Source of the DNA: an uncultured Thermanaerothrix sp.
GTDB lineage: Bacteria; Chloroflexota; Anaerolineae; Anaerolineales; Anaerolineaceae
Assembly: GCF_938028735.1 (NCBI RefSeq)
Contig: NZ_CALIMF010000015.1
Coordinates: forward strand, 1 to 64,000
Direction: 5' to 3'
Length of the DNA: 64,000 bases
This document shows, one piece after another, positions 24,061 to 39,580 of this stretch. The notes under the pieces are model-generated. The model worked only from the letters and a program-made list of their open reading frames with translations. It was not told the origin of the DNA and made no database searches. The first letter of the stretch is position 1. Each line of letters begins with the position of its first letter. A program made the position numbers and the translations under genes.

Positions 24061-26130
24061 ATGAAGCCACGCTGGATTCTCTGGGTTTTGTTGGGGATTG
24101 GAATGCTAGGATTGACGGCCTGTGCGGGTCGGCCTCAACCAACGCCGGCGCTCACCCCTGTGTTAGCAGAGCCCACGCTGACTGCTGGGGAAGATACTCT
24201 GGGATTGGCGATGGAGGGATTCAAAAAAGGGGGGTGTGGCGCTTGCCATGTGATTCCTAGGGTGCCAGGCGCACAAGGTACCATTGGGCCGGATCTGACG
24301 AACATCGCTGAGGTGGCTAAAAAGCGGCTGGAGTCGGGTGAATATAGCGGTAAGGCCAAGACCGTGCTTGATTATTTGCACGAGTCCATTGTGGATCCGG
24401 ACGCTTTCCTAGCCCCAGATTGTAATGGAGTACCTTGTCAGAAAGGGCTGATGCCCGCAAATCTGGACAAGCTCCTAAGCACGGCAGAAATCGAGGCTAT
24501 GGTTCAATATCTCTATCATCCACCGGAGAAGGTTGCAGAGCAAGAACTCTCTGCACCGACGCAAGCCGTTTCGGCGGCCGGCTCCTCAACCCTCTTAAGT
24601 GAGGAGGAGTTTGCCTGGGCCAAGCAGGTTTATTTTGAGCGCTGCGCTGGTTGTCACGGGACCTTGCGAAAGGGCGCAACTGGGCCGGCCCTCACACCTG
24701 ATCAAACGCAACCCAAAGGAACCCTTGCTTTAGCCTCCATTATTTTCAACGGGACGCCCCGTGGAATGCCAGATTGGGGTAAGCAGGGTTTCTTCACCCA
24801 AGAACAGACGGAGATTATGGCCAAGTTCTTGCAAATGGAACCGCCCGCGCCGCCAGAAATGTCGCTTGAGCAGATGAAGCAGACCTGGAAGGTTCTAGTG
24901 CCTCCCGATCAGCGACCTACTCAGCCCCAAACAACACGCGATTGGCAGAATTACTTTGTGGTGACGTTGCGAGATGCCGGACAGGTAGCTGTGATTGATG
25001 GAAATACTTATGAAGTAGTGGCAAAACTCGATACTGGGTATGCGGTTCATATTTCGCGGATGTCAGCAACAGGCCGATATGTTTACGTTATTGGCCGTGA
25101 TGGTCGTCTTTCGATGGTGGATCTTTGGCCTGAAGTGCCTCAAAAGGTCGCCGAGGTACAAACCTGTTATGATGCTCGGTCGGTAGAGGTCAGTAAATAT
25201 AAAGGTGAATTGGGAGATTTCAGGGATCGTTATGCCATCGTCGGTTGTTATTGGCCTCCTCATTTTGTTATATTGGATGGGCAGACGCTGGAGCCTTTCA
25301 AAATCGTGAGCACGCGAGGATACACGGTTGACACGGAAGAGTACCATCCCGAGCCCCGTGTGGCCGCCATTGTTGCCTCGCACCTTAAGCCAGAGTGGAT
25401 CGTCAACGTCAAGGAGATTGGTCAAATTTGGTTAGTGGACTACAGTGATCCGCATAACCCAACTATTAAGATGATTGAAGCCGCCCGCTATCTGCATGAT
25501 GGTGGCTGGGATGCCACGAAGCGCTACTTCCTGGTGGCAGCCAATCAATCGAACAAGGTAGCTGTTGTAGACAGTTTGGAAGGCAAGTTGGTGGCTCTGA
25601 TAGATACGCCAGCGGTCCCCCATCCAGGGCGAGGAGCCAACTGGGTGGATCCGCAGTTCGGCCCAGTCTGGAGCACGGCCCATCTGGGGGATGCGGCGAT
25701 CACTACCATCGGCACCGACCCGGTCGGGCACCCACAGTATGCCTGGAAAGCGGTTCGCGAGATTGCGTTACCTGGTGCTGGCAGCCTGTTCATCAAAACA
25801 CACCCCACCAGCCCATGGATTTGGGTGGATATGACCCTGAACTCCGAGCCACAATTGGCGCGTACCATCTGCGTGGTGGCTAAATCCGATCCTACTCGGC
25901 CGTATAAATGCTGGGAAGTGGCCGACTACGGGCGGGCTACACACTTTGAATACAATCGCCAGGGCACCGAAATTTGGGTGAGTGTATGGGGTACTGCGGA
26001 TAAACCAGGCCAAACCGGCGAGATCGTCATCTACGACGATCGCACTTTGCAGGAGAAAGCTCGCATTCCTAACCTAGTCACCCCGACTGGTAAGTTCAAT
26101 GTTTACAACACAGTGAATGACATTTACTGA
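24061..26130 (+). CDS. nirS: Cytochrome cd1 nitrite reductase with extra N-terminal cytochrome c domain, lipoprotein
   Basis: NirS reduces nitrite to NO in denitrification. The signal peptide has the lipobox LTAC (cysteine 21), so the enzyme should be anchored outside the membrane. Two heme c motifs are present: C59-GAC-H63 in an additional domain (about residues 40-160) and C195-AGC-H199 in the normal NirS cytochrome domain. The eight-bladed d1 propeller covers about residues 295-689, with H330 (YAVHISRMS, the d1 ligand) and the substrate histidines H429 (YHPEPRV) and H479 (LHDGG). The C-terminal TPTGKFNVYNT is diagnostic. At 689 residues it is longer than ordinary NirS (about 560-600). No d1-heme synthesis genes are nearby. 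Confidence 0.92.
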   Translation: MKPRWILWVLLGIGMLGLTACAGRPQPTPALTPVLAEPTLTAGEDTLGLAMEGFKKGGCGACHVIPRVPGAQGTIGPDLTNIAEVAKKRLESGEYSGKAKTVLDYLHESIVDPDAFLAPDCNGVPCQKGLMPANLDKLLSTAEIEAMVQYLYHPPEKVAEQELSAPTQAVSAAGSSTLLSEEEFAWAKQVYFERCAGCHGTLRKGATGPALTPDQTQPKGTLALASIIFNGTPRGMPDWGKQGFFTQEQTEIMAKFLQMEPPAPPEMSLEQMKQTWKVLVPPDQRPTQPQTTRDWQNYFVVTLRDAGQVAVIDGNTYEVVAKLDTGYAVHISRMSATGRYVYVIGRDGRLSMVDLWPEVPQKVAEVQTCYDARSVEVSKYKGELGDFRDRYAIVGCYWPPHFVILDGQTLEPFKIVSTRGYTVDTEEYHPEPRVAAIVASHLKPEWIVNVKEIGQIWLVDYSDPHNPTIKMIEAARYLHDGGWDATKRYFLVAANQSNKVAVVDSLEGKLVALIDTPAVPHPGRGANWVDPQFGPVWSTAHLGDAAITTIGTDPVGHPQYAWKAVREIALPGAGSLFIKTHPTSPWIWVDMTLNSEPQLARTICVVAKSDPTRPYKCWEVADYGRATHFEYNRQGTEIWVSVWGTADKPGQTGEIVIYDDRTLQEKARIPNLVTPTGKFNVYNTVNDIY

Positions 26131-26519: not shown

Positions 26520-26535
26520 AGGCATGAAACTTGCA
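26520..26535 (+). promoter_or_regulatory. Sigma-54 promoter upstream of rpoN
   Basis: AGGCATGAAACTTGCA fits the -24/-12 consensus TGGCAY-N5-TTGCA with one mismatch at the first base. The invariant GG (26521) and GC (26533) are exactly 12 bases apart. Transcription would start near 26546, about 40 bases before the rpoN ATG, implying autoregulation. Confidence 0.75.
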
Positions 26536-26585: not shown

Positions 26586-28019
26586 ATGTTGCAAATTCAG
26601 CAGACTTCTACACGCACAGTTATCACTGCGCATCTGACTCAGACCATGTCTCTGTTGCATCAATCGGTGGGGGAGTTGTGGCAGCAGATTCAGGCTGAAT
26701 TGACCAATCCCGCCCTTGAACTGGTTGAGGAACGCCGATGCCCAATGTGCCATCGCTTACTGGAGGCCAGTGAGAGCGTTTGTCCCATCTGCAGCAAACC
26801 GCGGGGTAGTGCTCAGGATGAGGTGGTGGTTTTCATTTCCCCACGGGAGGACTTCTTCCCCACCTCCTCGGGCGAATGGAATGAGGAAACCGAGGAGGAG
26901 CTCTTGGAAGAGCGATTCTTCTCCGAACCACTTGAATTGTCTACTTATGTCCTGCGCCAGGTGGCGTTTGAGTTAGAGCATGACGACCAACTTATTGCAG
27001 CGCATTTGGCTATGCACCTGGATGAGGATGGGCTACTGAGGACTGAGGTGGCCGAGGTGGCGAGTTATTTCCACGTACCTGTCTCGCGGGTAGAACGCAT
27101 TCGCCAGGCTATTCAACGCGTGGATCCATTGGGGGTGGGCTCCTATACTCCTCAGGAAGCCATGCTGGTCCAACTGGAGGTTCTTAAGGAATCTGACGAT
27201 GTGCCCGATGTAGTGGAACTCTTGATCCGGGAGGGATTGGATGACTTAGGCAAGCGTCGTTACGCAGAGCTGGCGCGGCGGTTAGGCATGCCATTGCGTG
27301 CGGTCAAGGAAGCAGCTCAGTTCATCAGTAATAATCTGAATCCTTACCCGGCGCGGGGACATTGGGGGGATGTGCGGACCCCTGCTGCTGATGCACGGCG
27401 TGCTTTGACCTACCCTGATGTCGTCATCTCTCATCTCAATGAGGACCCTAATGGACCGCTGATGGTGGAGATTATCCTGCCCTTGCGGGGCGTTTTGCGC
27501 GTCAATCCAACTTTTCGACAGGGGCTTAAACTGGCGGAGGGGGAGGCGCGGGAAGAATTGCGTAGCGATCTAGATCGGGCCGCGCTCTTTATCAAGTGTC
27601 TTCAGCAGCGCAACCACACCCTGTTACGTCTAATGCGGCGTGTGGTGGAATTGCAACGTGATTACATCCTTAAGGGTGAGCGTTATTTGCGGCCCATCAC
27701 TCGCCATCAAATTGCACGTGAGTTAAATCTGCATGAATCCACCATTTCCAGGGCGGTGGCGCAGAAAAATGTGCAACTTCCGAATAAGCGTATTGTGCCG
27801 CTGGCTTCCTTTTTCGATCGAAATGGCAATGTGCGGAGCGCCCTACGTGAGCTTATTGCTGGCGAGTCCTACCCGCTAAGTGATGCTGAAATTGCCGAGC
27901 GCTTGCGCCAGCAGGGCTTCAAGGTGGCGCGGCGGACGGTTGCCAAATATCGCACCATGGAAGGAATCCTGCCGGCTCACTTACGGCACTCCCCCTCTTG
28001 TTCCCCTTCTACTCCATAA
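26586..28019 (+). CDS. rpoN: RNA polymerase sigma-54 factor with inserted zinc ribbon
   Basis: Sigma-54 directs polymerase to -24/-12 promoters and needs an AAA+ activator. Region I is the glutamine/leucine-rich N-terminus (residues 1-47, with HLTQTMSLLHQSVGELW). The core-binding domain follows, then the helix-turn-helix HESTISRAVAQKNVQLPN and the RpoN box ARRTVAKYR at residues 448-456, the family signature. An unusual insertion sits in region II: C52-x2-C55-x10-C66-x2-C69, a zinc-ribbon pattern. The 477-residue length is normal. It heads a co-directional set with a sensor kinase and a sigma-54 activator. Confidence 0.95.
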   Translation: MLQIQQTSTRTVITAHLTQTMSLLHQSVGELWQQIQAELTNPALELVEERRCPMCHRLLEASESVCPICSKPRGSAQDEVVVFISPREDFFPTSSGEWNEETEEELLEERFFSEPLELSTYVLRQVAFELEHDDQLIAAHLAMHLDEDGLLRTEVAEVASYFHVPVSRVERIRQAIQRVDPLGVGSYTPQEAMLVQLEVLKESDDVPDVVELLIREGLDDLGKRRYAELARRLGMPLRAVKEAAQFISNNLNPYPARGHWGDVRTPAADARRALTYPDVVISHLNEDPNGPLMVEIILPLRGVLRVNPTFRQGLKLAEGEAREELRSDLDRAALFIKCLQQRNHTLLRLMRRVVELQRDYILKGERYLRPITRHQIARELNLHESTISRAVAQKNVQLPNKRIVPLASFFDRNGNVRSALRELIAGESYPLSDAEIAERLRQQGFKVARRTVAKYRTMEGILPAHLRHSPSCSPSTP

Positions 28020-28039: not shown

Positions 28040-29971
28040 ATGACGTTTTATCCTATTGGGCGCAATACCAAGAGCAATCTCTTTCGTGGCCTGGTCTTGC
28101 TGCTGGATCTGTGTAATGAGCCAGTTCTCCTGTTTGATACCCGCCAAAATCGTATCTTGTATGCTACCCCTCGCTTTTGTGAGTTGAGCGGTTATTATCT
28201 GAGTGAACTGCTGAAACGGGCCCCAGAGGACATTTTGGGTGGGGAAAACATCATGGATTTTGCTGAAAGCAGCGATCTGGATCTGGTGCTTCATCCTAAG
28301 AGTGGGAACGTGATCAGTGTGGTTGGGCGGTGGGTGCCTCTGGGACTCCCTGAACCCTGGGCGGCTTTACGCATCACGCCGGGGGAAGATCCCTCTGCCT
28401 CCATGCAGCGCTGGTGGTTGCAAGCGCTGGAAACCCTTGGGAGCCTACCACGTCTCTTTCGCCAGCCCACCCTGGAGCAGGCTGTTTGGGAGATTTTGAA
28501 CTCACTTGCTCGTTTGTTTAAGGTGGCCTATGTGGGGGTTTATCAGGCTGAGAGTCGGTTCCCTGCGCTTCGGCGCATGGCGTGGGTTGGCAATGAGGCG
28601 TTATTTCCAGAGTCCCTTCCCAACACCGATTTAATCCGCCTGACGGCCAGCACCATTTGGGTGCCAGGTAAGCGGATTAATACCGAGGTCCACCGCGTAG
28701 CCCGTATGCACAACCTCAGTTACGTAGTGAGTGCCCCCCTTGGTTTTGAGCCAGCAATAGTGGGGTTGCTGATCGTGGCTGATTGGGAAAAATCTCCCCC
28801 GCCGTTTCTGTTGGAAGTGACAACGTTGGTGGCCAGTTACATTGACTTGCTTATTCAGCATTACCTGCGCAATGAGTCAATGCACATGGAAAAGGTTGTT
28901 TATGAACGACAAAACCAGATTCGAACGGCCATTGTTGAAAACAGCCACGAAGGCATTTTGATCCTGGATTCGGCGCTCTTGGTTGAGGATCTCAATTCAA
29001 CGGCTGAGATGATGCTGGGATATACCCGAAATGAGGTGGTGGGCCATACGGTGGAGAATATCCTGATCAGTCCAGATCGCGTTATGCCAGCACTGATTAG
29101 CGCCAGCCAAGGAAAGAGTTTTCCCTCTTTACCAGGTGTGACCCTGCATCGGCGCAATGGGCAGTCGTTTCCAGCGGACTTAAAGATCTTGCCAGTTGAA
29201 CGGGAAGGTGAAGTTCAAGCGGTGGTGGTCCTGATTAATGACATTAGTGAAAATGAACAGATTCGCGCTCAAACACGTCAGTTGGAACAACGGGCGTTCC
29301 TGGGAGAGTTTATGGGGGTTTTTGCCCATGAGGTTCTTAACCCTTTGAATGGTATTTCGACCGGTTTGGAGTTGCTAGCGGCGCGGTTGGGTGAGGATAG
29401 TCCCCACCGGGATCTAATAGCCCGTATGGAAGCCGATTGCAACCGCTTAGCGCATCAGATGGAGGCGTTGAAAAGTCTTTCCAAACCCTATGATCCTAAA
29501 CAGGAGCCGGTGAATATCGGCGAAGTAGTAAGTCGCTTAGTGGAACGGTGGCGACCACGTATGGCCCGCCTGAAGATTACCCCCATTGTGCAGATAGATG
29601 AAAATGTACCTCCGGTTCTGGGGGACTGGCGCGCGTTGGAGCAGGTATTTATGAACCTGATCAGCAATGCAATGGACGCGATGAGCCAGGAAGGTGGGGT
29701 ACTCTCTGTACGCGTTAAGCGCAATTATTCGGAGACATTGCGCCCCCAGGTGGAAATCACTGTCTCGGATAATGGGCCGGGAATTCCAGAGGAGATTCGA
29801 GAGCGGATTTTTCAGCCTTTCGTGACCACCAAACCCCATGGTACTGGCCTGGGATTGCCCATCACCAAGCGCATTGTTACGGCTCATCATGGTACGATTA
29901 AGGTCAATTCTTTTCCCGGTGGAACCGTGTTTCACGTCTTTCTGCCGGCCATTCCAGAAGACGAGGGGTAA
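28040..29971 (+). CDS. PAS-GAF-PAS sensor histidine kinase (NtrB-like)
   Basis: A 643-residue cytoplasmic kinase with no membrane helices. Visible order: a degenerate PAS-like domain (about 25-95), a GAF-like domain (about 135-285), a PAS domain (about 305-420, IVENSHEGILILDS and LGYTRNEVVGHTVENIL), then HisKA with the phospho-acceptor H430 in GVFAHEVLNPLNGIS. HATPase_c follows, with FMNLISNAMDAM, SDNGPGIPEEI and GTGLGLPITKRIV. It ends 5 bases before the response regulator gene, which is its obvious partner. The signal sensed is unknown; GAF and PAS point to a soluble or redox ligand inside the cell. Confidence 0.92.
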   Translation: MTFYPIGRNTKSNLFRGLVLLLDLCNEPVLLFDTRQNRILYATPRFCELSGYYLSELLKRAPEDILGGENIMDFAESSDLDLVLHPKSGNVISVVGRWVPLGLPEPWAALRITPGEDPSASMQRWWLQALETLGSLPRLFRQPTLEQAVWEILNSLARLFKVAYVGVYQAESRFPALRRMAWVGNEALFPESLPNTDLIRLTASTIWVPGKRINTEVHRVARMHNLSYVVSAPLGFEPAIVGLLIVADWEKSPPPFLLEVTTLVASYIDLLIQHYLRNESMHMEKVVYERQNQIRTAIVENSHEGILILDSALLVEDLNSTAEMMLGYTRNEVVGHTVENILISPDRVMPALISASQGKSFPSLPGVTLHRRNGQSFPADLKILPVEREGEVQAVVVLINDISENEQIRAQTRQLEQRAFLGEFMGVFAHEVLNPLNGISTGLELLAARLGEDSPHRDLIARMEADCNRLAHQMEALKSLSKPYDPKQEPVNIGEVVSRLVERWRPRMARLKITPIVQIDENVPPVLGDWRALEQVFMNLISNAMDAMSQEGGVLSVRVKRNYSETLRPQVEITVSDNGPGIPEEIRERIFQPFVTTKPHGTGLGLPITKRIVTAHHGTIKVNSFPGGTVFHVFLPAIPEDEG

Positions 29972-29976
29972 TCACA

Positions 29977-31146
29977 GTGGCAATCACAGTGGTTGTTGTT
30001 GAGGATGAAGATAATGCCCGCCTAAACATTATAGAGCATTTGAGTACGCTGGGGTATGAGACAATTGGCTTTAGCACGTTGGCTGAGGCCCGCGCTTGCT
30101 TGGAACGCGGCGAGGGTGACATTTTTATTGTGGATGTCCAATTACCCGATGGTTATGGCCCAGATCTGCTTTTGGAGAGCAGTCGTTTGTCCTTCCGGCC
30201 CCCGATGATCGTCATTACGGCCTATGGAGATATTGAAATGGCCGTGGAGGCGATGCGCAACGGGGCCAGTGATTTTGTGACCAAGCCATTTCAGCTGTCG
30301 CAATTGGCTAACTCGGTGAAACGCGCTAGTGAAATCGTCTTTATGCGACGCGAACTGGCTCACTGGCGCGAGGCACAGACGCGCGAGGTGAATTTTATCA
30401 TCGGCAAGAGCCCCGCCATGCAGAAGGTCATTCTCCAAGCGCGCCGGGCAGCACAGGCGCAAGTTTCGGTGTTAATCACAGGCGAAACCGGCACGGGTAA
30501 GGATGTTTTAGCGCGCTACATTCACCAGAATGGCCCTCGGGCGTCTAAACCCTATATTGCGGTCAACTGTGCGGCTATCCAGCCGACCATGATTGAGTCG
30601 GAACTTTTTGGGCATGAGGCGGGAGCGTTCACGGGTGCAGAGAAACGCAAGCATGGCCTTATTGAAGTAGCGGATGGGGGCATCTTGTTTTTGGACGAGA
30701 TATCTTCCATGTCGTTGGATATGCAGGCCAAATTGCTGCGGGCGCTTGAGGAGCAGGCCATTCGCCGTGTAGGCGGAACTACCATGATCAAGGTAGATGT
30801 GCAAATTATTGCGGCCTCCAATCGCAATCTGCAGGAAATGATCCGCTCGCAGCAGTTTCGCCAGGATCTTTATTACCGCTTAAAGGTGGTAGATTTGCAC
30901 TTGCCTCCCTTACGGGATCGCAAAGAGGATATTCCTGAACTGGTGGGGTTCTTCATTCGACACCACAATGCCAAATTGGGGATGAACGTGCAGGATGTAA
31001 CACCTGCTGCTATGGAAGCCTTGATGAAGTACGATTGGCCGGGCAATATTCGGGAATTAAACCATGCCATTGAACGGGCAATGTTGTTCTGTAATGGGCG
31101 CGTCGTTGATTGGGGAGACTTGCCGGCGGATGTGATCCAGGGTTAA
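29977..31146 (+). CDS. Sigma-54 activator: receiver plus AAA+ domain, no DNA-binding domain
   Basis: An NtrC-class response regulator. The receiver domain (1-125) has acceptor D53 in VDVQLPDG and the lysine in VTKPF. The AAA+ domain has Walker A GETGTGKD at 169-176, the sigma-54-contacting GAFTGA loop at 216-221, and GGILFLDEIS as Walker B. The protein stops at residue 389, right after the AAA+ lid (NIRELNHAIERAM...), so the usual Fis-type helix-turn-helix is absent. Downstream sequence holds no displaced HTH. The start is GTG 29977 behind ACGAGGGG. It probably activates from solution, as known for FlgR and CtcC. Confidence 0.93.
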   Translation: MAITVVVVEDEDNARLNIIEHLSTLGYETIGFSTLAEARACLERGEGDIFIVDVQLPDGYGPDLLLESSRLSFRPPMIVITAYGDIEMAVEAMRNGASDFVTKPFQLSQLANSVKRASEIVFMRRELAHWREAQTREVNFIIGKSPAMQKVILQARRAAQAQVSVLITGETGTGKDVLARYIHQNGPRASKPYIAVNCAAIQPTMIESELFGHEAGAFTGAEKRKHGLIEVADGGILFLDEISSMSLDMQAKLLRALEEQAIRRVGGTTMIKVDVQIIAASNRNLQEMIRSQQFRQDLYYRLKVVDLHLPPLRDRKEDIPELVGFFIRHHNAKLGMNVQDVTPAAMEALMKYDWPGNIRELNHAIERAMLFCNGRVVDWGDLPADVIQG

Positions 31147-31158
31147 CGAACCATAGAT

Positions 31159-31174
31159 TGGCATGCTTCTTGCA
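31159..31174 (+). promoter_or_regulatory. Sigma-54 promoter of the membrane protein-TPR-protease genes
   Basis: TGGCATGCTTCTTGCA is a full match to TGGCAY-N5-TTGCA, with GG at 31160 and GC at 31172 at the required 12-base offset. Transcription would start near 31186, about 31 bases before the next ATG, after the stop of the activator gene. Confidence 0.85.
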
Positions 31175-31216
31175 TCATTCCCATTCGTCAGGCTTGCTAA
31201 AGTCAGGAGGATGGGA

Positions 31217-31546
31217 ATGATGCCTTTTGAGATGACTAAAAATGATTTTTTCTTTACCATGGCTGGACTTTTGCTCCTGCTGGGGGTGGTTTGTTTTCTA
31301 AGCGGGCTGATCATACTGATCTCACGAGTTTTGGGAAGCGATGTACAACGTCTGGCTGCTCAAACTGCCAAAATGGTCCAGAAGGGGATTAGTGAAGAAA
31401 TTGCTGGCCTGGTTGGTAATGCGGCGACTTTGATCGAATCTCTCAATCAACTGGTACACACTACGGCGGGGATCGGCGTCTTTCTGATGTTGGTGGGGAT
31501 GCTCCTGATTCTGGCTTCTTATTTCCTAGTGGTGCGGATCGTCTAA
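31217..31546 (+). CDS. Small two-helix membrane protein under sigma-54 control
   Basis: About 109 residues with two strongly hydrophobic segments (about residues 11-37 and 83-108) joined by a 45-residue amphipathic, mostly helical linker. Not recognised. AGGAGG at 31205-31210 suits ATG 31217 (6-base spacing) or 31220; ATG 31211 is too close, and the TTG-type start at 31163 lies before the predicted transcription start. It is the first gene after the sigma-54 promoter and 41 bases before the giant TPR gene, so it is likely a working part of the same system, perhaps its membrane target or anchor. Confidence 0.75.
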   Translation: MMPFEMTKNDFFFTMAGLLLLLGVVCFLSGLIILISRVLGSDVQRLAAQTAKMVQKGISEEIAGLVGNAATLIESLNQLVHTTAGIGVFLMLVGMLLILASYFLVVRIV

Positions 31547-31587: not shown

Positions 31588-34500
31588 ATGAAGTTGCTTT
31601 TGGAATGGATCCGTGCGTCCTTGAACGAGCCTGAACAGGGCCTGGTGTTGCGGGCATTACGCCATGATCCCATTGTTTGGGAGTCACTTCAGGAAGTCAG
31701 TGTGCTAGGAACACTGAGTGGAGTCAAACGTGATGCTTGTGAGTTGTGGATGGCCGGGAGTTTGGCTATCTCCTTAATCCAGCCCACGGTTCATGCTACG
31801 GGGATCTCAGCCCTGCAACGCTTGGCCGGTGATGAATCCATTGTGCGTGAGGGGGTGACACTCCTGGGATGGGTGGAAAAGGGACATGCTCCAAGCAATT
31901 TGCGAGAAGCAGGGTTGGTAGCGCTGGAATTATGGCGACGCGCTCAGGAAACCTCTTGGGAAAATATCTTGCCTCATGAGCAATTTGAGACCGATCCTGA
32001 ACGGTGGAATGCTCCCCTAGTTTGTCTATGGGGATACTTAGATGATCCTCATGCCTTGTTGGAATTCTTAGCGGCACTACCAGAGCCGCTGAGCTATCAT
32101 CATGTGCTCCACGTTTTGCTTAGTCAACCCTTAAGCGATCAGGAACAGTGGGAGTATCTGCGCCCGGTGATCCTCAGGCAATCTCTGTCGCAGCAAGTGC
32201 AGTGGCCTTGGTACCTCCTTCAGGAAGGACGGAAAGAATTGGCCGGTCTCACAGCAAGTCATGTGTTGGTTCTTTCCCGAAGGGCTCTGGAGGCATGGTG
32301 TGACCAGGATATTTCTAACCTGACCACGTGGAGCGACCTGAAAGAACGTGCGTTCTGGTTGCATGCGACAGCGTTGTTGTTTCGACTGAGCGGTATGCCC
32401 GCGAGAAGCCTGGAGCGATTAGAACAATTACAGGCTTTGCTGGATTACTGGAAAGCCGGTGTGGCGATACAACAGATGGCGCTATATCCTTCTGGATCTT
32501 TAGGTCAAGAGGCTTCGACGAAGTTTCCTGGGTTGATCTTGGAGCAATTCTCTGTATGGGGATTAGGAGATGCGCTGGCCCTTTCCGGACAGGAGTTAGG
32601 AGAATGGGATATTAATACCCCGCCGATTCTACTGGAAGTTCTTAAGTGGGCCAGAAAAAGCGAAACAATTCCAGATGCGCAGCGCCAGATTCTGGTTGAG
32701 AGATTGCGCTCCTGGTTGGAGGATCAAGATGCGGCGCACCTTCAGAGGGTGATGGCTTGGCTGGGTAAAGTAGATCCCAAGCCCTTGTTAAGGGCATTGC
32801 AGCGTTTAGGGCTGAGTGAATTGGGCATTGAAGTAGGGCAGCGAGTTTTGGAGTATCTCTCTCCCTCCGAAGACCTCTTTCTCCAGATGTGTGATCTCTG
32901 CGATGAGGCGGGTTTTTATCAACAGGCGCTAATTTATGGATTACAAGGGGTTATCCACTTTCCACAATCAATTCCCATAAGGCGAAAACTGGCCCGTGCC
33001 TATGAGCGTTTGGAGGCCTGGGAGAAAGCATTAGAAGAATGGCGACATCTCACTGGAGATGAGACCTTGGAGGATAAAATCAATGATCGAATGTCGCTAA
33101 TTTACTGTGCCATCCAGGTGGGGCGGTTTCAGGAGGCCTTTGAGGAGTGCCAGAGGGTCTTAAACGACTCGCCTGAAAACGGCATGGCTTACGCTTACCT
33201 TGGGGTCATCTTATTAGAAAATGGGGAGATGGAGGAAGCCGTTCAGGCTTTAACCCAAGCTACCCTTTTGTGTCCTACTGAGGCCTACCCCTGGGTAAAA
33301 CTAGCCGAGTACTACCAGCGTCATGGCGAGGTCACAAAGGCGATCGACACCCTTCGCAGTGCCAGCCTTGTCTTGCCGACTTCGGCAGAAATTCATCTGG
33401 CGTTAGGAAAAATTCTCCTGGAGCGAGGGAATCTCTCTGAAGCGCTGCCTTACTTACGCCGTGCGAGTGATTTGACTCCGAACTCTTACGAAGCTAATCT
33501 CTTGCTGATCCAGACCTTGCTAGGGTTAGGCTATCATGAAGAAAGCCAGGCTGTTTTGATGCGGGCTGGTGCGCATTGGCCTGACGATCCCCACTTGATT
33601 TTCCTGAAGGCCTGCTTGCAGCAACGGTTGGGGGCAGAAGCCCATCAGGTGCGAGAGACGATGCGTTCCCTTTTGGATCACGGGGATGTGAGGCCCGAAT
33701 GGGCATGGTTCTATCTCAAAACCTTGTGGAATAAAGATGAAGATCTCCTGAATCTGGGAGCACATGCTCTACCAGAGGAGTTGGAACAGGCACAGGCCTT
33801 GTTACGCCGCCTTCTGGTTCAGCAGCCTGATAATCAGAATGCCCAATTACTTATGGGATGTGTATTACTGGCTCGGGGGCAGAGCGAGGTGGCGTTAAGT
33901 ATCTTCCAGACGCTGGAGAGTGATCGAAAGTCCCTGGAGTATTGCAAGCAAGCCGTCCTTCTGGGTGGGATTGGGATGAGTGCCTTGAAGCAACATCAGC
34001 CCGAGGTTGCTTTGGCGGCGCTGGAAGAGGCCATTGCCCTTTGTCCCGAGTGGCCAAGATTGCACATGGCGTTAGCAGAGGTTTATGCCTCTCTCAATCT
34101 CAAAGCCGCGGCTCAAGAAACTGCCAATCGGCTTCTGGATCACTTTGCAGATGATTTAGAAGTTGTGGAATGGTTTGTACAATTTGCAAATCAAGAGCAG
34201 TGGATAGAAGAGAAGATAAAAGGATTAGAGCAAGCCACAGCGTTGGTTCCACAATGTGGAACTTACTGGTTAAGACTGGCAGATGCCCTAGCCGAGGGGG
34301 GAGAGGAAGAACGCGCGCTTGAAATTCTAACGACACTTTCCTCTCAGCCTCATCTGGATGCAACGGTTGTGTCAATGCTCAGCCAACGCCTATATGCGCG
34401 CAACAACTATCTGCTGGCTGCCCACTCGTTGTGCCGATTGAAAGGGGAGGCAGAGTTCTGGAATAAGGAGCGGAGTTTGCAAGTTGCACTTTTGTCCTTT

Positions 34501-36945
34501 TTGGCGGGCGAGCTGGAAACAGCGCGGGCTGCTCTCCTGGAGACACTCGAAATGGCCCCTGATTGGCTACCTGCTCGCGTCGTTCAGGCGTATTGGTTAA
34601 CCCGAGAGGGGCGAGCGTCGGAAGCAGTGGCTGTCCTAGAAGCCATCTTGCAGCAAAGGCTAGATGATCCGCTCTTTGAGGACTCTGATATCAAGGATTG
34701 GACTCATGATTTGCTTCAGAAGGGCGGAATTGACTTCTCGAGGGGTGCTGTTCATTTCCTGTATGCTCGTCTCAAACTTCGGTTAGGTGACATCGAAACT
34801 GCTTATGTGCATTTTGTACGTGCGGCAACTCTGTGCCCCCAGGCGCTGGCCTATCGTGGATGGGCAGTTTTGGCGGCGCAGGCAACATTACGTTTTACAG
34901 AGGTGCGCGCTCTTATAGAGGTTGAACCGGCTACCTTTGAAGCAATACAGTTAGGGGATGCAGAGCGAAACTGGCGTGCACTAATGATGCTTCTTGCCGG
35001 CGAGCTCGCGTTGGAAGAAGGCGATCTTGAAGGCGTTTATCAAAGGATTGAGCAGAGCCTGGCGTGGCGCGCTGACTTTCCCCGTGCCATCGCTCTCAAA
35101 GTCCGTTACTTGGCGACACTGGGGCGGTGGCGTGAAGCGCGTGCTCTTTATGAGCGTCTGGGACCCGTTATTCAGGCTGCACTCTTGGGCGTCTTTGAGG
35201 AGCATGAGGTAGGCATGGAATGGGGGTGGTTGGGCGAAGCGGCGCTGGCGGTTTTAGATTGGGAACGCGGGCTTCAATTGTTGCAAAGCAATGCCGAGCG
35301 GTTTTCTGGTATGCCGATAGCACACTGGCGGCTGGCACGTGCATGGGTGGTAACCCAAATGGCCTGTACTTGGGCAGATGTACTGGGGATTCAGGATCAC
35401 CGGCCTCCTGAGATTCCAGATGTCTTGAAGCGCTTTGAGGAAGCCTTGGCAAAACTGAAAGATTGTAGCCAGGAAGCCCTCGTTGAACAGTTGCGTGTTT
35501 GGGGATATGGTGTCTTTGCCCCCACTTATTCCAATGTACGCGCGTTGGTTGGCCTACCGCTGAACAGTGAGCGCGCAGCCGCTTTGCTCGTGGCATTGGT
35601 TCATCTACAAAACTGGCCCGGCGCAGAAAAGGTGGCAGAGCAGTTCATGCAAGATGTCTGGATGCAATTCTACGCAGCCACTTTTCTAGGAACGCGGGCG
35701 CCTGAGAAAGGGATGATGTGGGCGCTCAAGGCTCTTGAGGAACTAAGCGATTTCCCACCTTTGTTTGTGGCGCTGGCGCGTTGTGCCCGTGCAGCGAGTA
35801 ACCTGGAAGTAGCCCTGGAGGCCATGGATCGCGCATTGAATCTGTGGCCCTCTGAATGGAGGTGGCTAGAAGAGGCGGCCAGCCTTGCCATGGAAACCGA
35901 AAATCCCTCCCGGGCTGTTGACTTTCTGGAGCGCCTGTTGCAGGAGTGCCCCAACCATCTAGCAGCCCATCTGAATCTAGCCCGGTTGTATGTGGATCTC
36001 AATCAAGGAGTATTGGCCCGGGGACACCTGGAACAGGCTCTTCTATTAGCGCCTGAAAATCCAGAAGTTGTTCTTCAGTATCTTCAGACCCTGTGGGTTC
36101 TTGGAGAGGCTCAAAAGGTGGTGGAGATTGCTAAGAGCTATCTAGATAAATTTTCTGACCGATCCACGTTGCTAAAAGTGGCTGCTCGGGCGGCAATAGA
36201 AACGGGCTCTTGGGAGTACGCCAACACCTGGACGCAAACGCTTATAGAGAAAGGGGAAGATGATCCCGAGTCTGTCTTGTTGCGAGTGGCTTATCTAGAA
36301 CGGAGGGAGGATAAGCGCAAGGCTTTGGCCTACTTGGATCGGGTCATTGAGTCCCGGGACGAGAATGTGGCACTACTGGGTGAAAAGGCTCATCTGATCA
36401 GTCAACTGGACGGTTATGCGCAGGCGTTACCCATTATCCAAAAGGTTTTGACCCAAGATCCGGAGAATTCTGCAATGCTTGGGCTGGCAGCACAAGCGTT
36501 TTGGTCATTAGGCGATATCACACAGGCGGAAGCGATGGCGCTTAAGGGGCTGCAAAATATGCCCGATCAGGAAAATCTGCACATGTTGATGGGGCAGATA
36601 TGTTCCCAAAAGGGGCAATTGGATAAAGCCCTTTATCACTTTGGTGAAGCCTTGCGGCTGAATCCACAGAATCTTGAGGGCTATCTGGCCATGGCAAAAG
36701 TGTATCAACTACGGCGCGAATCTCCCAAAGCATTTGAGATCTATCAGCAGGCCTTGCGTATTGCCCCACGGGATCCGCGGGTATATTACGAGTATGGCTT
36801 AGCACTTCGGGATGGCAAAGATTATTTGGCTGCTGAGTCCATGCTGCGCCGAGCAGCCCAGTTAGCTCCGGACAATCTGGCCATCAAGCGTCAGTTGGGG
36901 GCTCTGGTGGCTTTGAATTTAGTGCATCAACCCCAGGAGGCATGA
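31588..36945 (+). CDS. Giant TPR-repeat protein (1785 residues)
   Basis: A soluble all-helical protein with no signal peptide or membrane segment. The first about 420 residues are helical but do not show clear TPR spacing. From about residue 430 to the C-terminus the sequence is a long array of tetratricopeptide repeats, visible as recurring W/Y-x-x-L-G-x-x-Y...A-x-x-x-Y/F...P motifs (for example AYLGVILLENGEMEEAVQAL and YEYGLALRDGKDYLAAESML). No catalytic motif is evident. TPR superhelices bind peptides or partner proteins, so a scaffold or recognition subunit is likely. The stop overlaps the ribosome binding site of the downstream TPR-protease gene. Confidence 0.88.
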   Translation: MKLLLEWIRASLNEPEQGLVLRALRHDPIVWESLQEVSVLGTLSGVKRDACELWMAGSLAISLIQPTVHATGISALQRLAGDESIVREGVTLLGWVEKGHAPSNLREAGLVALELWRRAQETSWENILPHEQFETDPERWNAPLVCLWGYLDDPHALLEFLAALPEPLSYHHVLHVLLSQPLSDQEQWEYLRPVILRQSLSQQVQWPWYLLQEGRKELAGLTASHVLVLSRRALEAWCDQDISNLTTWSDLKERAFWLHATALLFRLSGMPARSLERLEQLQALLDYWKAGVAIQQMALYPSGSLGQEASTKFPGLILEQFSVWGLGDALALSGQELGEWDINTPPILLEVLKWARKSETIPDAQRQILVERLRSWLEDQDAAHLQRVMAWLGKVDPKPLLRALQRLGLSELGIEVGQRVLEYLSPSEDLFLQMCDLCDEAGFYQQALIYGLQGVIHFPQSIPIRRKLARAYERLEAWEKALEEWRHLTGDETLEDKINDRMSLIYCAIQVGRFQEAFEECQRVLNDSPENGMAYAYLGVILLENGEMEEAVQALTQATLLCPTEAYPWVKLAEYYQRHGEVTKAIDTLRSASLVLPTSAEIHLALGKILLERGNLSEALPYLRRASDLTPNSYEANLLLIQTLLGLGYHEESQAVLMRAGAHWPDDPHLIFLKACLQQRLGAEAHQVRETMRSLLDHGDVRPEWAWFYLKTLWNKDEDLLNLGAHALPEELEQAQALLRRLLVQQPDNQNAQLLMGCVLLARGQSEVALSIFQTLESDRKSLEYCKQAVLLGGIGMSALKQHQPEVALAALEEAIALCPEWPRLHMALAEVYASLNLKAAAQETANRLLDHFADDLEVVEWFVQFANQEQWIEEKIKGLEQATALVPQCGTYWLRLADALAEGGEEERALEILTTLSSQPHLDATVVSMLSQRLYARNNYLLAAHSLCRLKGEAEFWNKERSLQVALLSFLAGELETARAALLETLEMAPDWLPARVVQAYWLTREGRASEAVAVLEAILQQRLDDPLFEDSDIKDWTHDLLQKGGIDFSRGAVHFLYARLKLRLGDIETAYVHFVRAATLCPQALAYRGWAVLAAQATLRFTEVRALIEVEPATFEAIQLGDAERNWRALMMLLAGELALEEGDLEGVYQRIEQSLAWRADFPRAIALKVRYLATLGRWREARALYERLGPVIQAALLGVFEEHEVGMEWGWLGEAALAVLDWERGLQLLQSNAERFSGMPIAHWRLARAWVVTQMACTWADVLGIQDHRPPEIPDVLKRFEEALAKLKDCSQEALVEQLRVWGYGVFAPTYSNVRALVGLPLNSERAAALLVALVHLQNWPGAEKVAEQFMQDVWMQFYAATFLGTRAPEKGMMWALKALEELSDFPPLFVALARCARAASNLEVALEAMDRALNLWPSEWRWLEEAASLAMETENPSRAVDFLERLLQECPNHLAAHLNLARLYVDLNQGVLARGHLEQALLLAPENPEVVLQYLQTLWVLGEAQKVVEIAKSYLDKFSDRSTLLKVAARAAIETGSWEYANTWTQTLIEKGEDDPESVLLRVAYLERREDKRKALAYLDRVIESRDENVALLGEKAHLISQLDGYAQALPIIQKVLTQDPENSAMLGLAAQAFWSLGDITQAEAMALKGLQNMPDQENLHMLMGQICSQKGQLDKALYHFGEALRLNPQNLEGYLAMAKVYQLRRESPKAFEIYQQALRIAPRDPRVYYEYGLALRDGKDYLAAESMLRRAAQLAPDNLAIKRQLGALVALNLVHQPQEA

Positions 36946-36949
36946 TTCC

Positions 36950-39580
36950 ATGGATAACCAATCCTCTATGCTACCCTCGATCTCGCGACTCTGGGAGCGT
37001 AAACAATGGCTGAGCATTATTCGGGTGGCAATTGAGGCACGAAGCCTGCGTTTTGCCCGTCAAGTGGCCATGGCCTGGTTGAATATTTATCCAGGCGATT
37101 TGACAATGAGCTATTGGCTAGCCAAGAGTTTCGTGCTAGATGGACTTATCGAGCAGGGGCAGGTTATTTTGGAGCGCGTTTTGCAGGTGGATCCAGAGTT
37201 TTATGAGGGCTATCGGCTGGTGCTTGATATTGCCGAGCGCGGAAATGCGCATATGGATCCTCAGGCAGCAAAAACAGCATTGTTTGTCCTGAATCCAGAT
37301 TTTGAGCCGCTTGAGTCCATGCCTGAATGGGCTGAAAGGCTACGTCAGGCGCGCCAAGCTTTGGAGCAGGGGCACCTTGAGCAGGCAGAAAACCAGATTT
37401 ATCGCGCCCTTACCCTGGCTCAAGATCAATTGTTGGTCTACCTAACCCACATTCGAATTCTACATCGCTTGCAAGATTGGGTTAGCGTTGTTCGATTTAG
37501 CAATCTCTATCGTCAGCGCTGGCCGGACTGTCTGGGGCTAACGCTGGCGCTGGCAGAGGGCAAACTGGCATTGGGGGATGAAGCTGAAGGTACAAGCCTG
37601 TTGCATCGGTGTGTGACTATGGACGTCGCTGGCCAGGTCATCCTGCGATGGTTAGGTCCTGGGCATCCTTTTTGGCGTCTCTGGCCTGATTCTTTGACCC
37701 TAACCTTTGATTTTCCGGTTCCGGCTGAGGTAGCTGCTCACTTAGGTTGGAACCAATTGTCTGAACCCTCGGTGCAAGAGATTTCTGTTGGAGATGTTGC
37801 GGTTGAAAATCTTAGATCTTTTGCCACAAACTCTCCGGAATATAAGGATAGTGAGCGAACGGTGAACGAGGAGCAGAGTGGAGAAGAACCTAAAAATGCT
37901 AATGAGAGTAGTTCTGTCTCTCATTTACCCCGAGCAAAGAGCCCTTGGGTTCTTGAAATTGAAAATGAACTTGATGCCATTGCCAAACGGATTAATCGCG
38001 GTGGTATTGCCCATGTAGATGGGCGATTTCCAATTTACGTAGTTTTCTCTTCTCGTGTGGGGTTAGAACAGCATTACGGTGAGCAAGCCGCTACTACCAT
38101 CGTGGCTCAAATGCAGGAGTTGGTGGAAGTGGTAGCCAATGAGTTTGGCTGGGGTGCAATGATCTTCCTGCCGGATGATGCGGATTCTATGGCACGTTTA
38201 GGAATGAAACCCCTTGAAAAAACCGATGCATGGTCGCTCAAACTGGCGTTAGTGGATTTGGATGAGGTTCTAGCCAAACGGGGTGGCCGCATTGGCGCGT
38301 TACTAATCATAGGAGGGGATGAGATTGTTCCTTTCCATCGGTTGCCCAACCCAACTGACGATATAGACACTGAGGTGCTTTCAGATAATCCTTATGCTAC
38401 CCGCGACAGCAATTACTTTGTCCCCGAATGGGCGGTAGGGCGTTTGCCTGGAGGGCGCGATCGCGATCCAGGGCCGATTTTGCAAAGCCTGCGATCTATG
38501 CAAAGATACCATCGCGAACGCCGCAGAAATCCTTCGTGGTGGGAGCGTTGGTTAGCTTTTTGGCGTTCGTGGGGCTTCCCGGAGCATCGCGGCTTGGGAT
38601 ACTCGGCAGCTGTATGGCGTCGAGCTGCCCTGGCTACTTTCCGGCCAGTGGGCCGACGGAAAATATTCTGGATTTCACCGCCTTATAAGCGAGAGCGACT
38701 GAATCCCAAGGTGCTTACCCGCACGGCATTGAACTATTACAATTTGCACGGGCTGATAGACGGGGCTGAATGGTATGGTCAAAAGGACCCCCATGATCCC
38801 ACCCCGGGACCGGATTATCCAGTGGCCTTGACCCCAGGTGACCTCGTTAAGAATGGTAAAGCCCCCCGGATTGTATTTAGCGAGGCTTGTTATGGTGGTC
38901 ATATCCTGGGTAAGAGCGATCAGGATTCAATTGCTCTGCGTTTTTTAGATATTGGTACGTTGGCGTTTGTTGGTTCAACCAGCATCTCCTATGGGGCGGT
39001 TCAAAGCCCATTGGTTGGTGCTGATTTGCTCGGTTACTACTTTTGGAATGGATTGCGTGCGGGTTATTCAGCGGGTGAGGCGCTCTTGCTAGCTAAAATC
39101 GCCCTGGTGCGAGAAATGAACCGCCGTCAGGGTTTTCTGGACGGTGAAGACCAGAAGACTCTCATCTCATTCACGCTCTATGGGGATCCATTGACGTATG
39201 GGCTGGACCTGCTCAAACCCTCCAAGCGTCTGTTTCGATCCTTCCAGCGACCTAGGGTGAAAACCATCGCTGATCAGCCGAATGGCAAGGCTCTCCCCGA
39301 AACGATGAGTGGTCATCTGGTAGCTGAAGCCAAAAAGATTTTGGAACCCTTCTTGCCTGGATTGGCGCAGGCGGAATGGCGGCTTAATGTTGCCCGATCT
39401 ACGGCGGGTGAAAGAGAGGCCAATCCAGTATCTGGAAAGTCCGCTTTAGGCAACAGTAACGAGCCGTTGGTATTGGTTTTCCACAGGAACCAGATTGAAG
39501 GCGGAAAGGCCCATCCCTATTTTGCCCGGGTTACCATGAGCAAGGAGGGCAAGGTGATGAAGGTTTCGATCTCACGTTAA
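36950..39580 (+). CDS. TPR protein with clan CD (C25/caspase-like) cysteine peptidase domain
   Basis: 876 residues, no signal peptide, so cytoplasmic. Residues 1-285 are TPR-like helices. A polar linker (about 285-335) leads to a caspase/gingipain-fold domain (about 340-755). This shows ALLIIGGDEIVPFHR (449-463), SDNPYATRDSN and VGRLPGG, then the candidate catalytic pair H600 in NLHG and C647 in SEACYGG, and the closing FTLYGDPLTYG. The order and spacing match peptidase family C25 and its relatives. A small mixed domain ends the protein. AGGAGG at 36935-36940 supports the start, and the gene lies 4 bases after the giant TPR gene. Substrate unknown. Confidence 0.85.
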   Translation: MDNQSSMLPSISRLWERKQWLSIIRVAIEARSLRFARQVAMAWLNIYPGDLTMSYWLAKSFVLDGLIEQGQVILERVLQVDPEFYEGYRLVLDIAERGNAHMDPQAAKTALFVLNPDFEPLESMPEWAERLRQARQALEQGHLEQAENQIYRALTLAQDQLLVYLTHIRILHRLQDWVSVVRFSNLYRQRWPDCLGLTLALAEGKLALGDEAEGTSLLHRCVTMDVAGQVILRWLGPGHPFWRLWPDSLTLTFDFPVPAEVAAHLGWNQLSEPSVQEISVGDVAVENLRSFATNSPEYKDSERTVNEEQSGEEPKNANESSSVSHLPRAKSPWVLEIENELDAIAKRINRGGIAHVDGRFPIYVVFSSRVGLEQHYGEQAATTIVAQMQELVEVVANEFGWGAMIFLPDDADSMARLGMKPLEKTDAWSLKLALVDLDEVLAKRGGRIGALLIIGGDEIVPFHRLPNPTDDIDTEVLSDNPYATRDSNYFVPEWAVGRLPGGRDRDPGPILQSLRSMQRYHRERRRNPSWWERWLAFWRSWGFPEHRGLGYSAAVWRRAALATFRPVGRRKIFWISPPYKRERLNPKVLTRTALNYYNLHGLIDGAEWYGQKDPHDPTPGPDYPVALTPGDLVKNGKAPRIVFSEACYGGHILGKSDQDSIALRFLDIGTLAFVGSTSISYGAVQSPLVGADLLGYYFWNGLRAGYSAGEALLLAKIALVREMNRRQGFLDGEDQKTLISFTLYGDPLTYGLDLLKPSKRLFRSFQRPRVKTIADQPNGKALPETMSGHLVAEAKKILEPFLPGLAQAEWRLNVARSTAGEREANPVSGKSALGNSNEPLVLVFHRNQIEGGKAHPYFARVTMSKEGKVMKVSISR

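Follow-up and report, generated by a model that had tools for sequence, protein, structure and literature searches.

The window, by which we mean the whole 64,000-nucleotide stretch analysed here from an uncultured Thermanaerothrix sp., carries on its forward strand rpoN and the genes for a PAS histidine kinase and an NtrC-like activator, followed by those for a small 2-TM protein, a giant TPR protein and a further TPR protein with a C25-like domain, which we call the TPR-protease (Table 1). The operon is taken to end at the protease gene because the downstream neighbour is convergent. Elsewhere in the window, at 24061-26130, SoxX-like and c-type cytochrome domains are fused to a cytochrome d1 heme domain.

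Table 1. Features of the TPR-protease locus (coordinates refer to the window)
Feature	Position	Strand	Basis or remark
rpoN promoter, probable sigma-54 type, AGGCATGAAACTTGCA, 10/11 matches	26520..26535	+	
rpoN (sigma-54)	26586..28019	+	single copy found in genome
PAS histidine kinase	28040..29971	+	domain scan; syntenic in relatives
NtrC-like sigma-54 activator: receiver and AAA+ with GAFTGA, no DNA-binding HTH	29977..31146	+	domain scan, motif
Sigma-54 -24/-12 promoter TGGCATGCTTCTTGCA	31159..31174	+	52 bp upstream of 2-TM gene
2-TM small protein, about 107-111 aa (start 31211, 31217 or 31220), first operon gene	31211..31546	+	hydropathy 2.9 and 2.8; conserved in 17 loci
Giant TPR protein, 1785 aa, operon partner	31588..36945	+	ends 4 bp before protease gene
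TPR-C25-like protein (TPR-protease), 876 aa, ATG start	36950..39580	+	ORF, alignment, fold model, profile-profile comparison
N-terminal TPR-type helical repeats, about residues 14-275	36989..37774	+	model helices H17-29 to H259-265
Gingipain-fold catalytic domain, about residues 355-755	38012..39214	+	RgpB Z 31.6, Kgp Z 29.6, hhalign to C25
Codon of predicted catalytic His600 (NLHG)	38747..38749	+	invariant in 34 rows and in L061/L062
Codon of predicted catalytic Cys647 (SEACYGG)	38888..38890	+	invariant in 34 rows and in L061/L062; aligned with C25 Cys

The promoter before the 2-TM gene, 13 bases past the activator gene, is the sole exact sigma-54 match within the 64 kb window. The layout of the locus recurs in relatives, from the genus neighbourhood out to distant families of Anaerolineae, and, of the 25 loci examined (window included), 20 have an exact TGGCAY-N5-TTGCW ahead of the 2-TM gene, mostly 50-59 bp before the start. 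A -24/-12 element is also conserved before rpoN, with 10-11 of 11 matches in most Anaerolineaceae, which suggests that rpoN is under positive autoregulation. The complete genome G253 departs from this layout: no giant TPR gene was found to separate its 2-TM and protease genes, and the site ahead of the 2-TM gene is weak. In some deep lineages (L050, L056, L057, L058 and L060), a receiver-only response regulator is inserted after the sigma-54 promoter, ahead of the 2-TM gene. Counted genome-wide, -24/-12 matches appeared enriched (15 vs 2 for a reversed-pattern control), but relatives that lack sigma-54 have similar counts, and for this reason we used only sites that are conserved and positioned.

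With a receiver, an AAA+ domain bearing GAFTGA and no HTH, the activator fits type Ic, the class of the HTH-less activators CtcC of Chlamydia and FlgR of Helicobacter (PMC3162934). The genome holds two strong matches to the sigma-54 activation domain, and GAFTGA is present only in the copy at the locus. The other copy (L092, contig C6:89700-90194) belongs to a 660 aa NtrC-family protein that is probably no sigma-54 activator, since its AAA+ domain is without GAFTGA. The first-pass annotation had suggested that the TPR-protease is a regulated intracellular protease with an unknown partner, and had made no mention of the operon, the sigma-54 system or a link to FtsZ. Its regulation is now supported by the sigma-54/two-component control region, and for the partner, candidates can be named, these being the 2-TM protein, the giant TPR protein and a second FtsZ (FtsZ2) described below.

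Catalytic domain and family assignment

The orthologue of the TPR-protease in Thermanaerothrix daxensis has 81% identity to it, with a dN of 0.12, a dS of 1.32 and a dN/dS of about 0.09; by this comparison of coding sequences, the ORF is under purifying selection. In an alignment of 34 relatives (26-81% identity), H600, C647, E645, D471, D479, W608 and G610 are invariant, as are the motifs LDGEDQKT, NPTDD and WYGQ, and the LD..QK/F..GDP end is likewise conserved. H600 and C647 are also kept in L061 and L062, two additional members that diverge strongly from the rest. The maximum mean hydropathy over 19 residues is 1.39, so that no hydrophobic segment reaches TM strength; the protein is thus without signal peptide or membrane anchor, and is predicted to be cytoplasmic. 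Some genomes of family f9 have second, more divergent copies of the catalytic domain (G100:C18:412424, G173:C71:1612 and G005:C1:66701), two of these three with an in-frame stop inside the match.

Because Pfam and NCBIfam scans assigned the TPR-protease to no peptidase family, fold comparison was taken as the route to its identity. We built an AlphaFold2 model from the 34-row alignment (mean pLDDT 79.8, above 85 in most of the catalytic domain and mostly above 90 in the TPR helices), in which a disordered linker (about 269-330) connects the TPR-like helices (17-265) to an alpha/beta domain (about 355-755), and the chain closes with a small beta tail. This tail (residues 788-876) is a small conserved C-terminal beta domain (H..HFAR.T....GK..KLS.S) that is present in nearly all family members. 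By structure superposition (VIA matches), the predicted catalytic domain of the model (residues 361-755) is closest to gingipain R (RgpB; Z 31.6, 308 residues, 2.7 A) and gingipain K (Kgp; Z 29.6), followed at a lower level by separase (Z 16.9), Csx29 (14.5), SAVED-CHAT (14.1) and PorU (13.7). Foldseek gave a concordant result, with Kgp as the top match (E 1.5e-8).

Several elements of the first-pass annotation bear on this domain. It had proposed H600 (NLHG) and C647 (SEACYGG), 47 residues apart, as a catalytic pair within a C25-like order of motifs, and both residues are where it placed them, with the motif order as described and conserved among relatives. Neither of the two results that it had named as refuting came about: in the family alignment the two residues proved invariant, as reported above, and in structure prediction the model sets H600 after strand 594-598 and C647 after strand 641-644, as in clan CD. 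Its reading of the protein as having N-terminal TPR helices and neither signal peptide nor sorting domain also held: there is no hydrophobic N-terminus and no TM segment, and the helical-repeat array of the model (residues 14-235) matches TPR structures. Pfam support for these repeats is weak (TPR_14, E 0.034, below the cut-off), and a sequence-profile search of the PDB returned TPR proteins only. The profile searches that it had suggested gave a divided answer. On one side, at E<=1 the protein matched none of the Pfam models for C25 (PF01364, which also had no match in the rest of its genome), caspase C14, clostripain C11, separase C50 and CHAT. On the other, hhalign against a C25 profile, built from bona fide C25 domains of other Chloroflexota, where PF01364 members do occur, aligned 320 columns (E 8e-7, probability 92%) with C647 on the C25 cysteine and the His two columns off the C25 His, inside a locally gapped stretch.

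C25 peptidases are usually secreted, with a signal peptide and a sorting domain, a trait that is not strictly defining. Judging from the model and the profile comparison, the TPR-protease is homologous to C25 and is predicted to work alike, as a separate cytoplasmic family missed by the C25 model. As this model fails to recognise the family, we do not file it under C25 by the Pfam criterion.

A second FtsZ and the distribution of the module

In deeper lineages, genes for a TIM-barrel protein, a DivIVA-like coiled coil, an MraZ homologue, a secreted peptidoglycan amidase and FtsZ lie directly downstream of the protease gene. In Anaerolineaceae, ftsZ2 is not adjacent to the protease gene; in the genome to which the window belongs, it is on another contig (C14), behind a TIM-barrel gene, with an exact sigma-54 site, TGGCACACTTCTTGCA, ahead of the pair. 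An exact site upstream of this operon was found in G000, G202, G271, G357, G243, G334, G362 and G289, and a site is also present, from coordinates, in G263 and G253. The canonical ftsZ of the same genome clusters with ftsA, ftsQ, ddl, murB and murC. Both proteins score above the NCBIfam FtsZ cut-off, FtsZ2 with 379 bits against TIGR00065 (cut-off 295), and FtsZ2 ends in the C-terminal peptide LDVPAFLRRR. In the FtsZ tree, where some FtsZ2 branches are long, the canonical FtsZs form one clade (100/100) apart from all FtsZ2, whether clustered with the protease or in separate operons, which is consistent with FtsZ2 being one old paralogue.

Two neighbours of ftsZ2 deserve a remark. The TIM barrel of the protein encoded just before FtsZ2 in our genome (L170:7028-8368, C14) was predicted by a low-confidence model, and its glycoside-hydrolase-like NEP motif is intact in L059 (YNEPN) and degraded in our genome (FDRPN) and in L048; it is possibly a pseudo-enzyme or a carbohydrate-binding division factor. 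The MraZ homologue inside the protease-FtsZ2 cluster (L057:14326-14781, Pfam E 5e-27; L056:13229-13657) may serve as a dedicated regulator, separate from the MraZ of the dcw cluster.

We then asked how these genes are distributed over 396 Anaerolineae genomes, in which the protease is present in 43 and a strong rpoN in 45. The set of 43 is defined by the catalytic domain; a profile termed A2 gave hits in 274 genomes and was set aside, since these are mostly generic matches to N-terminal TPR. Protease and rpoN occur together in 35 of the 43 protease genomes, vs 4.9 expected (Fisher P 2e-33), and the family-level protease/rpoN split is 12/4/6/38 (P 1.5e-5), P values that overstate independence because the genomes are related. 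Of the 35 genomes that have both, 23 carry the two genes no more than 20 kb apart on a single contig. The exceptions are 8 protease genomes without strong rpoN and 10 rpoN genomes without protease, some of them incomplete. At least two FtsZ were found in 34/43 protease genomes and 43/353 others (odds ratio 27). The two-FtsZ genomes without protease belong largely to families f38 and f39, which have other duplications, so the two-FtsZ state alone is not specific. The two or three FtsZ copies in these families represent separate FtsZ duplications within the class. All 11 Anaerolineaceae genomes sampled have the protease, in a fixed layout, together with rpoN and two FtsZ, and the related family f2 has no protease, no strong rpoN match and one FtsZ.

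Proposed function and its alternatives

The reading that we favour, and hold to be moderately probable, is that the TPR-protease is a regulated, active intracellular cysteine protease of clan CD and a core part of a sigma-54-controlled alternative division, or FtsZ2, programme in Anaerolineae. It is supported by the predicted fold, the invariant dyad, the predicted cytoplasmic location, the operon, the positioned promoters, the linkage to FtsZ2 and the co-occurrence with rpoN and FtsZ2. From what is known of sigma-54 biology, the PAS histidine kinase would detect an internal signal and phosphorylate the HTH-less activator, which would then drive sigma-54 RNA polymerase from solution, as CtcC and FlgR do (PMC3162934). 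Three promoters would respond: (i) that of rpoN and the two-component genes, giving positive feedback, (ii) that of the 2-TM, giant TPR and protease genes, and (iii) that of the TIM-barrel gene and ftsZ2. Together, the 2-TM and giant TPR proteins may provide a scaffold docked at the membrane, which would hold the protease by its TPR repeats and gate it, and the protease would make a limited cut in a division or cell-envelope protein, leading to FtsZ2-dependent septation or fragmentation. Tentatively, we also raise the possibility, to which we give clearly less weight, of a second, developmentally switched division machine, in which the sigma-54/two-component system turns on FtsZ2 and a TPR-docked, separase-like protease of gingipain fold whose cut of a division protein triggers specialised septation or filament fragmentation.

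Several other explanations have to be weighed against this. The catalytic domain might be a non-proteolytic scaffold or sensor that retains the dyad for the sake of folding or of binding a ligand, the TPR-2TM assembly then being structural in division. An intact dyad in a clan-CD fold does not guarantee activity, the C25 fold is able to serve a different reaction, as in PorU, itself among the lower fold matches (Z 13.7), and the many invariant residues beyond the dyad fit a structural constraint. However, neither the His nor the Cys varies even in relatives with about 26% identity, and in this fold the two are the catalytic pair; we regard a scaffold as unlikely. The module could also serve general envelope remodelling, with an FtsZ2 link that is indirect and due to the clustering of cell-wall genes. 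A role for sigma-54 in controlling the exterior of bacteria has been proposed (PMC3162934), and amidase and TIM-barrel proteins are found in the cluster; against this, ftsZ2 keeps its own conserved sigma-54 promoter even on another contig, and MraZ-like and DivIVA-like proteins belong to the cluster as well. This explanation seems to us about as improbable as a scaffold.

More doubtful still, in our view, is a caspase-like death protease that is armed by the sigma-54 system and carries out regulated cell death or phage defence, the 2-TM protein acting as pore or anchor. The pairing of TPR with a clan-CD protease resembles Csx29 (Z 14.5), the operon does have a 2-TM partner, and one homologue weakly resembles Saf_2TM (E 0.049, below the cut-off). 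Yet PADLOC gave no specific defence match, the layout is fixed in 11/11 sampled Anaerolineaceae genomes, and the genes linked to the protease belong to division and the cell wall rather than to defence.

Relation to known systems

Taken one by one, the catalytic fold, control by sigma-54 and the duplication of FtsZ are already known. In the open-access literature that we searched (sigma-54, C25 and FtsZ in Anaerolineae), we found no description of the combined programme or of a cytoplasmic TPR-C25-like family; to our knowledge, no earlier work connects a cytoplasmic protease of gingipain fold with a dedicated sigma-54 circuit and with a second FtsZ. Should the protease act on division, it would offer a bacterial parallel to separase, by analogy and not necessarily by descent, and sigma-54 in Anaerolineae would gain a specific job. 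Cell differentiation in a large and poorly understood filamentous group can now be studied with a concrete regulon and its promoters and marker genes in hand, and relatives in the cultured species Thermanaerothrix daxensis and Ornatilinea apprima make transcript tests feasible.

Among known proteases, the C25 gingipains RgpB and Kgp share with the TPR-protease the closest fold (Z 30-32, about 310 residues), the order of motifs through to the GDP end, and a His and then a Cys after successive strands. The differences are clear: the TPR-protease has no PF01364 match even at E 1 and only about 15% identity, lacks signal peptide and sorting domain, has TPR in place of the propeptide, and shows an H-C spacing of 47 residues with an insertion, WYGQKD. 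Separase (C50), the second-best fold group (Z 16.9), is likewise a cytoplasmic clan-CD protein with N-terminal helical repeats. Its role in the cell cycle would extend to the TPR-protease by association only, and the latter has no Pfam match, cohesin or securin and a fold similarity to separase far weaker than that to C25. Csx29 (TPR-CHAT) of Craspase also unites TPR and a clan-CD protease in one cytoplasmic, partner-regulated bacterial protein, but it has a CHAT rather than a C25-like fold and a CRISPR partner, Cas7-11, without sigma-54 or FtsZ; none of the ORFs examined around the protease gene, in the window and in relatives, is a CRISPR gene. The domain architecture of the locus activator is that of CtcC and FlgR, including the absence of a DNA-binding domain, the distinction being that the locus activator lies beside the single rpoN of the genome and beside its target operon, and does so in Chloroflexota. 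Finally, two FtsZ paralogues with a conserved C-terminal peptide are also found in other bacteria and archaea; what sets the present case apart is that the second FtsZ is placed under sigma-54, as its promoter site indicates, and is tied to a protease module.
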